Source: Armatimonadota bacterium (GTDB taxonomy: Bacteria > Armatimonadota > Zipacnadia > Zipacnadales > UBA11051). Taken from it: 56,013 nucleotides of DNA. This document shows, piece after piece, positions 26,124 through 30,049 of the stretch; positions within the stretch are counted from its first letter, which is position 1; each line of letters begins with the position of its first letter. The stretch covers positions 1 to 56,013 of the forward strand of contig JABLXH010000028.1 in NCBI GenBank assembly GCA_013178155.1, read 5' to 3'. The position numbers and the translations under genes are program-made. The notes beneath the pieces are model-generated. The model saw only the letters and a program-made list of their open reading frames with translations, made no database searches and was not told where the DNA came from.

Positions 26124-26396
26124 CTATGACTTGACCACCAGCATGTAGATGCCCATGAGCACGAAAAGGCCGCCCGCCACGTACCGAATGAGGTCCTTGG
26201 GAAGGTACGTGGCACAGAATCCCCCAATGCAGACGCCCATACCCGAGACAATGGTCAGGGCAAGGCTGGCGCCCAGCAATACCGCCCACGGCGACTGAAA
26301 CTTTGCCGACTGGGCCATGACAGCCAACTGGGTCTTATCCCCCAGTTCTGCGAGTAACAGCAGCCCGAAGGTGCTCACAAAGGCTTGCCAGTTCAT
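26124..26396 (-). CDS. GDT1/TMEM165 (UPF0016) family half-size transporter
   Basis: A 90-aa protein with three hydrophobic helices and the family signature ELGDKTQ at residues 17-23. Full-size GDT1 proteins have two such repeats and transport Mn2+ or Ca2+; single-repeat bacterial members are thought to assemble as homo- or heterodimers. Helix 1 is FVSTFGLLLLAELGDKTQLA, helix 2 WAVLLGASLALTIVSGMGVC and helix 3 YVAGGLFVLMGIYMLVV. No second half-repeat partner was found beside it, so a homodimer is possible. The GGGAGTA ribosome site lies just before the ATG, preceded by three stem-loops. Metal specificity is inferred from the family. Confidence 0.88.
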   Translation of the reverse strand: MNWQAFVSTFGLLLLAELGDKTQLAVMAQSAKFQSPWAVLLGASLALTIVSGMGVCIGGFCATYLPKDLIRYVAGGLFVLMGIYMLVVKS

Positions 26397-26522: not shown

Positions 26523-28304
26523 TCAGAAGCTGCTGACACAGGCACTGTGGCAGGCGGAGTGGCACGCGGAATGGCACACGCAGGCACTGTGACAGGCGCT
26601 GTGACAGGCGGAATGCACGCACGCCGAGTGGCAAGCATCATGGACGCAGGCGCTGTGGCAAGCCGAATGACAGGCGCTGTGACAGGCATCATAGCCAACG
26701 GCCTGAGCCACGCGCTCCGCGATCCCCTCTGCACCGTCAGCGACGACGGCTGCGGTGCTCTCCACCTTCTGGGCCACGCCCCGCGCCATGTCCTCCACCG
26801 CGGTCGCCAGGCTGGTGGCGCCCCGCGCCAGCGGTGTGTCCGCGTACCCGCTGCGGGCAGCAACCTGATCCAGCCCCGCATCGCGCCAGCGACTCTCGTA
26901 GTCATGTGCGATGACAATCCAGGGAAGATTCTCGTTCCAGCCCTGGGGCGACCGCGTCCACTCGGCGCCCTTGCGGGCTTCCTCCCAGCGGCGCTCGATC
27001 TCCGCCTCGTACTTGCGCCGTGTCGCCTGCCGGTCGGCATTCCACAACTTGCCCTGCAATGACCGCGCCACGGCCTCCAGCACATAGGGTACGCTGGCCT
27101 TGTCGAGAGTGCCGTCTTCGGTCAGGGCCGTAAGCAGCACTTTCTCGTAGTCGGCCAACCCCGCGGCTTCTGGCTGCAGTACCTCCAGTTGCAGCGGCCG
27201 GCGGTTGACCACATTGACGACCCCTCTTGCCGCCAGGTACATCACGATGAGTGTCAGCACCTTCGCAGTGTCGCCCAGATACATGGCGGCTTCGATGGCG
27301 CTAAGGTCCGGAACCGTCCCCTTGGTCTCGAAGCTCTCGACCTCGATCTCTGGTGCCTCATACAGCTTCTTCAGCGGTGGTGGCTGGTGGCCGAACTGAT
27401 AAAGCTTTACCAGAGCAACAACGACGAGGCCCAGGATGAGCAGAAACAGCAACACCTGCCAGAAGCTGAAGGCACCCCGGTACTCCTCGCGTTGTGATGG
27501 CGGCAGAACCGGCGCCTTCGTGCCCTGCGGATGCCGGCGCACATCCCGAAGCTGGGACGCAGTCGCGAGGGTCAGGCCTTTGGCCGGCGCGTAGAACTTG
27601 AAGGCTGGACTCTGGTTGAGCGGTGTGTTCCCACGCTTGAGCTGGATGGATAGCCAGACCTTGCCCGACCTCTCATCAGGGGTTGGGTAGTAGTCCACAT
27701 CGTCCCACTGACCGAAGCTCCCGGCTTTCTCGGTCTGGATGCCAATCCCCCGGACGACCGCCTCGGTGACCTGCTCCGGTCGGGTGATGCCCGCTGGCAG
27801 CGCCCAGGGGGTAATGAGGTCAACGCGCTGGAGACGCACCGGCAGATTCCACGCCGGCGGCGCCCAGCTCACCGCGACCATCTCCTGGCCGTTGCGGCTG
27901 GTGCGGTCCATGATGGGCTCGGTGGCCTGGTAGCGAACCTTGAGGGTGTAGACCTCGCCCCGCCGGGTGGTGGTACCAAGGCTGACGCTGTAGTCGCCCC
28001 CCCCTTTGGACGTCAGCGATGCGTTGACGGGCTGGCCATCCGGTCCCCCCACGCACAAAGAGGAGCTGACCAGCCGATGGGACGGGGTCAGCTTCCCGAG
28101 GTTCCTGATCTGCGAGCGTCCATTCTCGAGTTCGCGGAAGGTGAGCCAGTAGTCCACCTGGGGTATGCCGTCCGAGCCGATGACCAGGCGGCTGCGGGCC
28201 TCCTCTATCTCTACCGGCGCTTGCGCCTGCGCCTGACCCGTACCAGCGACCAACGCGGCAATGACGAGTGCAACTGCTGCAACCGCTCGGAGATGGCCCT
28301 GCAT
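26523..28304 (-). CDS. DUF2207-like membrane protein with Cys/His-rich repeat tail
   Basis: A 593-aa protein. Residues 1-28 form a signal peptide (ALVIAALVAGTGQAQAQA). Residues 30-270 form a beta-rich ectodomain similar in layout to DUF2207 proteins. One membrane helix (about 280-304, FSFWQVLLFLLILGLVVVAL) follows. A cytosolic helical domain contains IEAAMYLGDTAKVLTLIVMY and LADYEKVLLTALTEDGTLDK. An amphipathic helix precedes the tail (541-593), which is nine CHSA units broken by CV, HDA and HSA, with 13 Cys and 11 His. The tail should be cytosolic. It follows the SPFH gene by 39 bases and shares its strand. Family assignment to DUF2207 is moderate; I know of no name for this tail. It may bind zinc or another metal. 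Confidence 0.75.
   Translation of the reverse strand: MQGHLRAVAAVALVIAALVAGTGQAQAQAPVEIEEARSRLVIGSDGIPQVDYWLTFRELENGRSQIRNLGKLTPSHRLVSSSLCVGGPDGQPVNASLTSKGGGDYSVSLGTTTRRGEVYTLKVRYQATEPIMDRTSRNGQEMVAVSWAPPAWNLPVRLQRVDLITPWALPAGITRPEQVTEAVVRGIGIQTEKAGSFGQWDDVDYYPTPDERSGKVWLSIQLKRGNTPLNQSPAFKFYAPAKGLTLATASQLRDVRRHPQGTKAPVLPPSQREEYRGAFSFWQVLLFLLILGLVVVALVKLYQFGHQPPPLKKLYEAPEIEVESFETKGTVPDLSAIEAAMYLGDTAKVLTLIVMYLAARGVVNVVNRRPLQLEVLQPEAAGLADYEKVLLTALTEDGTLDKASVPYVLEAVARSLQGKLWNADRQATRRKYEAEIERRWEEARKGAEWTRSPQGWNENLPWIVIAHDYESRWRDAGLDQVAARSGYADTPLARGATSLATAVEDMARGVAQKVESTAAVVADGAEGIAERVAQAVGYDACHSACHSACHSACVHDACHSACVHSACHSACHSACVCHSACHSACHSACVSSF
26526..26684 (-). repeat. Tandem 12-bp repeat encoding Cys-His-Ser-Ala units
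   Basis: The last 53 codons of the membrane protein gene encode nine CHSA tetrapeptides. Serine is encoded by AGC, AGT, TCG and TCC, histidine by CAC and CAT, and alanine by GCC, GCG and GCT. This variation means the repeat is kept at the protein level rather than being a recent DNA slippage product. Confidence 0.9.
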
Positions 28305-28343: not shown

Positions 28344-29372
28344 CTAGCTCACGGCCTTGCCACACTCCGGGCAGAACTTTGCCCCGGTCGGTAGCGGCCT
28401 GCCACACTCGGCGCAGAACCCGCCAGCCAGGGCGGCGCCGCACTGAGGGCAGAACTTCGCTCCCGCCGGGACGGGATGCCCGGCAGGGCACTTGGCTTCC
28501 GCCTCGGCGGAGCTCGGGCTGCTCATTGCGTCCTTCATCGCCCCGGCCATGGCGGCGCCCATGGCCACACCGGCCCCCATGCCGACACCCGTGGCCACGG
28601 CGTCACTGCCCCCGCCGCCCGCCGAGGGCATGTCACCGATGGCCTGAGCGGTCTGGAACTGCAGGTAACGGCGAGTGTCGCCAACCGCCTCCATTCCCGC
28701 ACGCTCGTCGATGAGTTTCATGACTTCCTCGGGCGGGGTGATGGAGGTGACCAGAAAGTCTACCAGTTCGAGGCCATAGTTACGGAAGTCCTCGGCCAGT
28801 CGGGTCTGGGCGGCAGCCGCGATGCTCTCCATCTGCAGCGGCAAGTCGAGGACCGTCCTGAGCTGCTCTCCCAGCGCCACCTGGAACCGCGCCACGATGA
28901 AGTCCCGCAGCCAGTCCACAACGCTCTCCGTGTCATAGCGGTTCTCCGTCCCCACGACTTCGTTGACGAAGAGCTGGGGATCGCCAACCCGGCAGGTATA
29001 CGCGCCATTGGCGCCCAGGCGCACCATGCTTAGCTCTGCGTCGCGGAAGATAATGGGCGACGGCGTGCCCCATTTGAGGCCCGTGAAGGTGCGCATGTTG
29101 ACGAAGTAGATCTCGGCCTGGAAGGGGGTCTCGCCGCCGAAGGGGAGATTGATCAGCCGTTGCAGCAACGGAATGTTGGCGGTCTCCAGGGTGTGCCTGC
29201 CCGGCCCCAGTACATCGAGGGCCTTGCCGTCGCGGAAAAACACGGCAACCTGGCTCTCGCGCACCGTCAGTTGGGCGCCCAGGCGGATAGTGCCCGGCCC
29301 GTAGGTCGGCCAGCGATGCACGATCTCGTTGCCGCTCACATCCTGCCACTCAATGACATCCAGAAGATCCAT
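28344..29372 (-). CDS. SPFH-domain protein with C-terminal zinc ribbons (YdjI-like)
   Basis: A 342-aa soluble protein. Residues 1-230 form an SPFH/band-7-like domain (SQVAVFFRDGKALDVLGPG, WGTPSPIIFRDAELSMVRLG and GLELVDFLVTSITPPEEV). A Gly/Ala/Met-rich linker (251-285) joins it to zinc ribbons: Cys295, His299, Cys308, Cys311, then Cys320, Cys323, Cys334, Cys337 (FCAECGRPLPTGAKFCPECG). Relatives include B. subtilis YdjI, which works with PspA and two membrane proteins in an envelope-stress module. There is no membrane helix, so it likely joins the membrane through partners. The ATG has GGGAGG seven bases upstream. Neighbours: a coiled-coil protein upstream and the CHSA membrane protein downstream. 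Confidence 0.9.
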   Translation of the reverse strand: MDLLDVIEWQDVSGNEIVHRWPTYGPGTIRLGAQLTVRESQVAVFFRDGKALDVLGPGRHTLETANIPLLQRLINLPFGGETPFQAEIYFVNMRTFTGLKWGTPSPIIFRDAELSMVRLGANGAYTCRVGDPQLFVNEVVGTENRYDTESVVDWLRDFIVARFQVALGEQLRTVLDLPLQMESIAAAAQTRLAEDFRNYGLELVDFLVTSITPPEEVMKLIDERAGMEAVGDTRRYLQFQTAQAIGDMPSAGGGGSDAVATGVGMGAGVAMGAAMAGAMKDAMSSPSSAEAEAKCPAGHPVPAGAKFCPQCGAALAGGFCAECGRPLPTGAKFCPECGKAVS

Positions 29373-29421: not shown

Positions 29422-29940
29422 TCACGAACCCAGTTGCGCTGCCGCCTCCTGGCGCTGGTCCACCACGTGATCCAGGTTGTCGAGAGCGTCGGCCAGTGCA
29501 GAAACCGCCTCGGCGCGCTGGTCCGCCGCGCTCTTTCCTACCTGTGCAGCGGCTGCCACGACGGCAGCAACGTGCTGTTCCAGGGCCACATCGAACTCGT
29601 AGAGGCGGTCCAGCTCCGCGGCCTCGATCTTCAGGGCGTCAAAGAAGCCGGCATAGCCATAGCTGGCATGCTCAATACGGTCACGGGTGCGGACTAGCCG
29701 TCGGCCAAGGCGGTTGAGGTCGGTTATCGGCTTGAACTGGCCCTCGGCCGAGAGCTTGGCCTGGGCACGGGACAACTGCTCGCTGGCGCTGCTCAGAAGC
29801 CCCACCAGGTGCATGCGCAGGAGCTTGTCAGCATCTCTGCGGTCTTCCTTCTCCTGGTACCCCTTGAAACCAGGGATCGTCTCCATCAGTGTCTCCAGCG
29901 CTGTCCGCCCATCGCGAACCTGGTCACGAAGGTCACCCAT
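29422..29940 (-). CDS. Predicted all-helical cytosolic protein upstream of the SPFH gene
   Basis: A 172-aa helical protein with no membrane segment. Striking motifs are ETIPGFKGYQEKEDRRDADK (residues 20-39), LRRLVRTRDRI-like basic helices, and HASYGYAGFFDALKI followed by ELDRLYEFDVALEQHV. I recall similar unnamed proteins but cannot give a family. The ATG (29940) has AGGTG six bases upstream; a longer reading from 29997 begins with a low-complexity stretch and is less likely. It is the first gene of the three-gene module. It could play the role that PspA plays in the comparable Bacillus module, but it is not a recognisable PspA homologue. Confidence 0.7.
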   Translation of the reverse strand: MGDLRDQVRDGRTALETLMETIPGFKGYQEKEDRRDADKLLRMHLVGLLSSASEQLSRAQAKLSAEGQFKPITDLNRLGRRLVRTRDRIEHASYGYAGFFDALKIEAAELDRLYEFDVALEQHVAAVVAAAAQVGKSAADQRAEAVSALADALDNLDHVVDQRQEAAAQLGS

Positions 29941-30049
29941 GTGCACACCTGCCTTCCCGGTACTCCCTTGCCGGTCTTGTGCTTCCCCCCTTCCCACAGA
30001 GTCACCTTCACCCGCGAGAGAGCATCCGACGAAACCGGAACCGCGCCTG

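Follow-up and report, generated by a model that had tools for sequence, protein, structure and literature searches.

A conserved CHSA-repeat tail on a DUF2207-like membrane protein as the probable substrate of a dedicated radical SAM enzyme

Introduction

What is a tail of repeated CHSA units doing at the end of an otherwise ordinary membrane protein? The question is raised by a contig of an Armatimonadota bacterium (JABLXH010000028.1, 56,013 nt; "the window" refers to this whole stretch of analyzed DNA), in which the list of open reading frames and their translations delineate, on the reverse strand, a gene for a DUF2207-like membrane protein of 593 aa (26523..28304) with such a tail at its C-terminus. 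A preliminary description of this DNA had offered metal binding, redox cross-linking, and palmitoylation as possible roles of the tail. None of these alone explains the radical SAM enzyme that accompanies the tail, a partner which that reading had missed. Since an enzyme with PqqD, radical SAM, and SPASM domains accompanies the tail in all genomes tested, enzymatic modification becomes the first hypothesis. Most likely, an enzyme modifies the tail, which would be a RiPP-like segment of a protein that is ordinary in other respects; we found no description of such a tail in the literature searched.

The CHSA tail and its carrier protein

The last 55 residues of the window protein, DACHSACHSACHSACVHDACHSACVHSACHSACHSACVCHSACHSACHSACVSSF, form the C-terminal tail (residues 539-593, positions 26526..26690 on the reverse strand) and constitute the proposed substrate (core) region. 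The tail is organized as four runs of CHSA interrupted by CVH or CVC steps, with ACV closing each run, and ends with SSF in the window protein and by VSxF in most relatives. Translation of the reading frame (26523-28304, reverse strand) yields nine CHSA units with 13 Cys and 11 His, exactly as initially counted. The extent first given (26526-26684) corresponds to residues 541-593; the conserved tail, however, starts two residues earlier, at residue 539. The nine units are encoded by eight distinct 12-mers, and the codon count for the tail (Cys, TGC 8 and TGT 5; His, CAC 7 and CAT 4; Ser, AGC 5, TCC 3, TCG 2, and AGT 2) reproduces the four Ser and two His codons reported before.

Assignment of the carrier to the DUF2207-like proteins, also made at the outset, agrees with matches in part of the family. 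The DUF2207 N-terminal domain (PF09972) is matched by 17 of the 42 homologues at E<=0.01 (best 3.6e-7), the window protein itself staying below the Pfam cut-off for DUF2207_C (16.8 bits against 33). No match of the window protein was found among the NCBIfam models. Hydropathy delineates a signal-peptide-like hydrophobic N-terminus (residues 1-27, 28224..28304; model helix 2-24) and a single predicted membrane helix (residues 276-306, 27387..27479; model helix 281-305), both encoded on the reverse strand. From this N-terminal stretch and the single, strong membrane helix, the tail is predicted to face the cytosol, i.e., the same side as the enzyme, in agreement with the location proposed earlier.

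The AlphaFold2 model is confident for the body and of low confidence for the tail, and the helices that it draws in the tail were accordingly rejected as evidence. The N-terminal part of the body has a likeness to beta domains of M1 aminopeptidases that we treat as one of fold only. At the very end of the tail, residues 591-593 (26526-26534) reach a pLDDT of 93, with the remaining tail at about 40-55; in the model, the C-terminal end of the tail may perhaps dock on the body.

Conservation and taxonomic distribution of the tail

A scan of genome contigs identified 48 relatives, with a slight bias, as one of the six peptide patterns used in it fell within the tail; a search of related genomes added more. 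All close relatives by body carry the same kind of tail at their end. Neither absence from close homologues nor slippage with identical codons, the observations that would have counted against the preliminary description, is thus seen. The tail-bearing relatives belong to Armatimonadota, Chloroflexota, Caldisericota, Cloacimonadota, and Spirochaetota, as well as to one Thermoproteota archaeon; all are metagenome-assembled genomes, and single odd taxon labels among them call for caution.

For 42 aligned proteins from Armatimonadota, Chloroflexota, and the archaeon, pairwise identity averages 92.6% over the tail and 40.1% over the body, and each single pair is more alike in the tail. The Cys and His residues of the tail are the most constant, whereas Ser and Ala are replaced by Asp, Asn, Thr, or Gly among homologues. 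Relative to the closest relative, 54 of the 55 tail residues are the same, and 28 of their codons differ. Near-invariance among homologues with about 40% body identity, together with the retention of 54 residues across differing codons, places the tail far beyond chance. Selection at the level of the peptide, suggested before on the basis of codon choice in this one gene, is thus borne out by synonymous differences between genomes.

Chance CHSA patterns occur in the low-complexity reading frames of viral contigs (L110, L111, and L114), which contain CHSA-like repeats and lack a DUF2207-like body. We take these contigs as unrelated, and a viral origin of the tail was rejected. A plasmid match was also looked for, and none was found.

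A radical SAM-SPASM enzyme accompanies the tail

The partner gene encodes a protein of about 475 aa with an N-terminal PqqD domain (RRE) followed by radical SAM and SPASM domains, an architecture known from RiPP maturases. The gene shares a locus with the tail gene in 44 of the 48 relatives, mostly directly 3' of the tail gene; in the remaining four, it is encoded elsewhere in the genome (4/4). The CxxxCxxC motif and the SPASM cysteines are invariant. The PqqD domain (PF05402) matches residues 34-92 of the enzyme at locus L020 with 41 bits against 23.4, and the match is weaker in some other enzymes (16.7 bits at L053 and 14.8 bits at L007). The closest solved relatives of the enzyme by sequence include PqqE and SkfB. 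Matches to viperin in PADLOC were taken as generic radical SAM similarity.

For the analysis of co-occurrence, tails were identified by a DNA pattern for CHSACHSAC and enzymes by the profile A2 at E<=1e-100, a limit chosen after a wide score gap to the next group had appeared. Among 291 genomes of Armatimonadota, tail and enzyme were found in the identical 13 and neither was found in any other; among 301 genomes of Chloroflexota, both were found in the identical three. These counts come from related genomes and hence do not represent independent events.

The enzyme gene is usually followed by genes for a coiled-coil protein of about 390 aa and a zinc-ribbon membrane protein of about 165 aa, and the radical SAM, coiled-coil, and zinc-ribbon proteins make up the constant gene set of the loci. 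The coiled-coil protein is modeled with a pLDDT of 94.6 and has generic coiled-coil matches only, none of them at E<=0.001. Neither a leader peptidase nor an exporter is among the constant genes of the tail loci, and a secreted HExxH protein is encoded 3' in 14 loci only. Because genes for leader cleavage and export have no constant place, we file the system as RiPP-like and not as a RiPP.

A sister family with CACA tails

The weaker matches of the search of related genomes end in a different tail, CACACAGCACACACAGGGR or close variants. The body of this CACA family is homologous to that of the CHSA family (hhalign, 99.8%, E 8e-28, 418 columns), and the two share a Cys-rich C-terminal repeat and radical SAM neighbors. 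They differ in that the CACA repeat has two residues and no His, and in that the CACA tail gene adjoins a radical SAM-SPASM enzyme of its own clade and a second protein with SPASM and without a radical SAM match.

Counted from the tables, 30 of the 31 genomes with an enzyme of the CACA-type group also have a CACA tail, and five further genomes have the tail without an enzyme match at the limit used. Two genomes (G009 and G014) have both tail types together with the two kinds of enzyme. A tree of 40 enzymes separates those of CHSA type 1, CHSA type 2, and CACA loci into three groups, with the minimum number of changes. Proteins with homologous bodies thus differ in tail according to the clade of their enzyme, which is what a substrate-enzyme relation would lead one to expect, although part of this grouping may reflect common ancestry of whole loci.

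The sister system is common in the order to which the window belongs (35 of 61 relatives; e.g., L092:5412-9954 in genome G035, L008-L017, and L125-L136). One genome has a second CACA-tailed reading frame (L130:1494-1649(-), contig C369 of genome G023) with another stretch before the tail (GGFRGGGFGGGFS).

Proposed modification of the tail and alternative explanations

The gene at the same locus, the exact co-occurrence, the domains of the enzyme, the conservation of the tail, the match between tail type and enzyme clade, and the single row of genes in the closest relative lead us to propose that the CHSA tail is the substrate of the dedicated PqqD-radical SAM-SPASM enzyme. Judged from sequence, we place the probability of this reading at roughly 0.82-0.85. 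Against it count the separate contigs of tail gene and enzyme gene in this genome, the weak PqqD match of some enzymes, the relatedness of the genomes counted, and a heme enzyme (AhbD) as the best NCBIfam match, which makes another substrate conceivable. In the membrane, the beta-rich N-terminal domain of the protein would lie outside, and the helical domain and the tail would reach into the cytosol. The PqqD-like domain (RRE) of the enzyme would bind this substrate, and the radical SAM center, aided by the SPASM clusters, would work repeatedly along the ACHS/ACV units and form Cys-derived cross-links in the tail. We lean slightly toward Cys as the site of such links; that they are thioethers is a first and tentative guess, made by analogy with SkfB-type enzymes. 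Because the constant gene set includes no peptidase or exporter, the modified tail would remain on the protein, where it could serve metal binding or redox chemistry as a rigid element on the inner side of the membrane, with the coiled-coil protein and the zinc-ribbon membrane protein as its usual partners. A metal or redox role of the modified tail is possible, if rather doubtful, and a role as a scaffold would be a further candidate.

Alternatively, an unmodified tail might bind or buffer metal through its ladders of CxxxC and HxxxH, in the manner of copper storage proteins, with the enzyme having another task in the same process. Such a role would suit 13 Cys and 11 His within 55 residues and the constancy of precisely these positions against variable Ser and Ala. 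It leaves unexplained, however, the exclusive enzyme partner and the correspondence between tail type and enzyme clade, and the positions and breaks of the tail are much more constrained than metallothionein-like tails require; we therefore consider it unlikely. The window protein matches no copper storage or metallothionein family in Pfam at E<=1.

We give considerably less credence to an enzyme of the tetrapyrrole type (AhbD/NirJ-like) with a tail that binds heme or a related cofactor. This explanation draws on the NCBIfam scores of the enzyme, of which those for the heme enzyme AhbD, the best match, and for NirJ2 are the highest. The AhbD score is, however, far under its cut-off (158.9 bits against 500), models for PqqE, ACGX, and sactipeptide maturases score the enzyme in a similar range, and a PqqD domain suits peptide substrates. 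Among the matches listed, the enzyme reaches none of the NCBIfam equivalog cut-offs.

Membrane insertion or palmitoylation-like lipidation of a Cys-rich tail appears highly improbable: the carrier is a membrane protein and hydropathy puts the tail near the inner face, but 11 His make the tail polar, the constant partners at the tail loci include no lipid transferase, and the link to a radical SAM enzyme would be left without explanation. A recent origin by slippage of the repeat, or an error of assembly, suggested by the tandem 12-base units and by the chance repeats of the viral contigs, was rejected as having next to no probability, given eight different 12-mers in nine units and homologues that keep the same register and breaks with different codons.

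Modification of the tail by its own enzyme would extend radical SAM peptide chemistry, known mostly on small precursors, to an apparent substrate that is a full-size membrane protein and apparently retains its modified tail. The tail sequence is almost unchanged between Armatimonadota, Chloroflexota, Caldisericota, and the archaeon. Such constraint, and the fact that every tail type has an enzyme clade of its own although the bodies are homologous, suggest a general cellular function and not a secreted natural product. In its widest form, the proposal would describe a new class of membrane proteins with exchangeable C-terminal repeat tails (CHSA type 1, CHSA type 2, and CACA). A radical SAM enzyme specific to each tail would convert it into a cross-linked element that stays attached to the protein at the inner membrane face. 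This would be a new in-protein modification yielding a new cofactor-like or metal-binding material. We regard the odds of this wider claim as even.

Comparison with known systems

The system described here is called RiPP-like and is assigned to no named family, as the cut-offs of the repeat families compared are not reached. The SPASM thioether maturases (SkfB and PapB; sactipeptides and ranthipeptides) likewise bring radical SAM and SPASM domains to Cys-containing peptides; their substrates, however, are small secreted peptides and not membrane proteins, and the enzyme studied here scores under their NCBIfam cut-offs. The ACGX repeat, as is partly apparent from the family name, has an Ala-Cys pair every four residues, and such a pair recurs every four residues in the CHSA tail as well. 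The enzyme of this genome misses the cut-off of the ACGX radical SAM model TIGR04340 (104.4 bits against 400), the enzyme at L020 misses that of the HxsC radical SAM model (73.9 against 267.9), and the window tail protein has no match to the His-Xaa-Ser repeat protein model. In both the Hxs and the ACGX systems, short repeats in tandem are paired with a radical SAM enzyme, as far as they are outlined in NCBIfam and in the work of Haft and Basu cited in PMC9062424.

For TvgA/TvgB, a radical SAM enzyme has been experimentally shown to modify units of the four-residue repeat TVGG (PMC9062424). The likeness lies in the pairing of a radical SAM enzyme with a repeat of four residues. TvgA/TvgB differs in its small precursor peptide, in its product at Val, which is cyclopropylglycine, and in its gene set, which includes a dioxygenase and peptidase/transporters (PMC9062424).

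The nearest published parallel is provided by the TIGR04222 membrane proteins, which have a Cys-containing low-complexity C-terminus and are encoded beside an MNIO (DUF692) enzyme; modification of the tail on the intact protein has been proposed for them (PMC12452194). Shared features are the membrane protein, the Cys-bearing C-terminus, and the neighboring peptide-modifying enzyme. The TIGR04222 tails, however, are Ser/Gly-rich with scattered Cys and predicted to be periplasmic (PMC12452194), the enzyme is an MNIO and not a radical SAM protein, and the link to it is looser, as it is missing in a third of genomes compared with none here. The TIGR04222 domain has no match in the window protein, and a long homologue (L064) matches it weakly (18.2 bits, cut-off 43).

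Open-access literature contained no relevant full-text match for CHSACHSA, and neither DUF2207 with SPFH nor ACGX with radical SAM was found there; we give such searches little weight as evidence.

Organization of the locus in the window

The genome under study encodes the enzyme on another contig (C38, 1809-3206), where the coiled-coil gene follows and a gene for an FMN reductase lies nearby. In the closest relative (genome G001, locus L090), the genes for the LIMLP, SPFH, tail, FMN reductase, radical SAM, and coiled-coil proteins form a single row. Compared with this intact arrangement, the cluster in the window is split, the break lying just after the tail gene and being due to a rearrangement or, less likely, to misassembly. 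The FMN reductases found near the radical SAM gene of this genome (L089:5003-5569(-)) and between the tail and radical SAM genes of the relative (L090:6173-6727(-)) are 66% identical, and such a protein might supply the enzyme with electrons.

Just downstream of the tail gene, the place of the FMN reductase and radical SAM genes of the relative is occupied in the window by half of a GDT1-type transporter (90 aa, 26124-26396, reverse strand). It was rejected as a metal-transport partner, being present at no other tail locus compared. Upstream, also on the reverse strand, lie genes for an SPFH/Band_7_1 protein with C-terminal zinc ribbons (28344..29372; Pfam) and for a LIMLP_15305-like protein (29422..29997; 51.8 bits against a cut-off of 210). 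Both were rejected as constant partners, since among the tail loci they are kept in the closest relative only. At the tail loci of Caldisericia, the tail gene adjoins genes for three small proteins that are related to one another and about 120-147 aa long (L053:3713-4987, and in the same place at L055, L057, L058, and L060); from reading their sequences, we take them to resemble GcvH.
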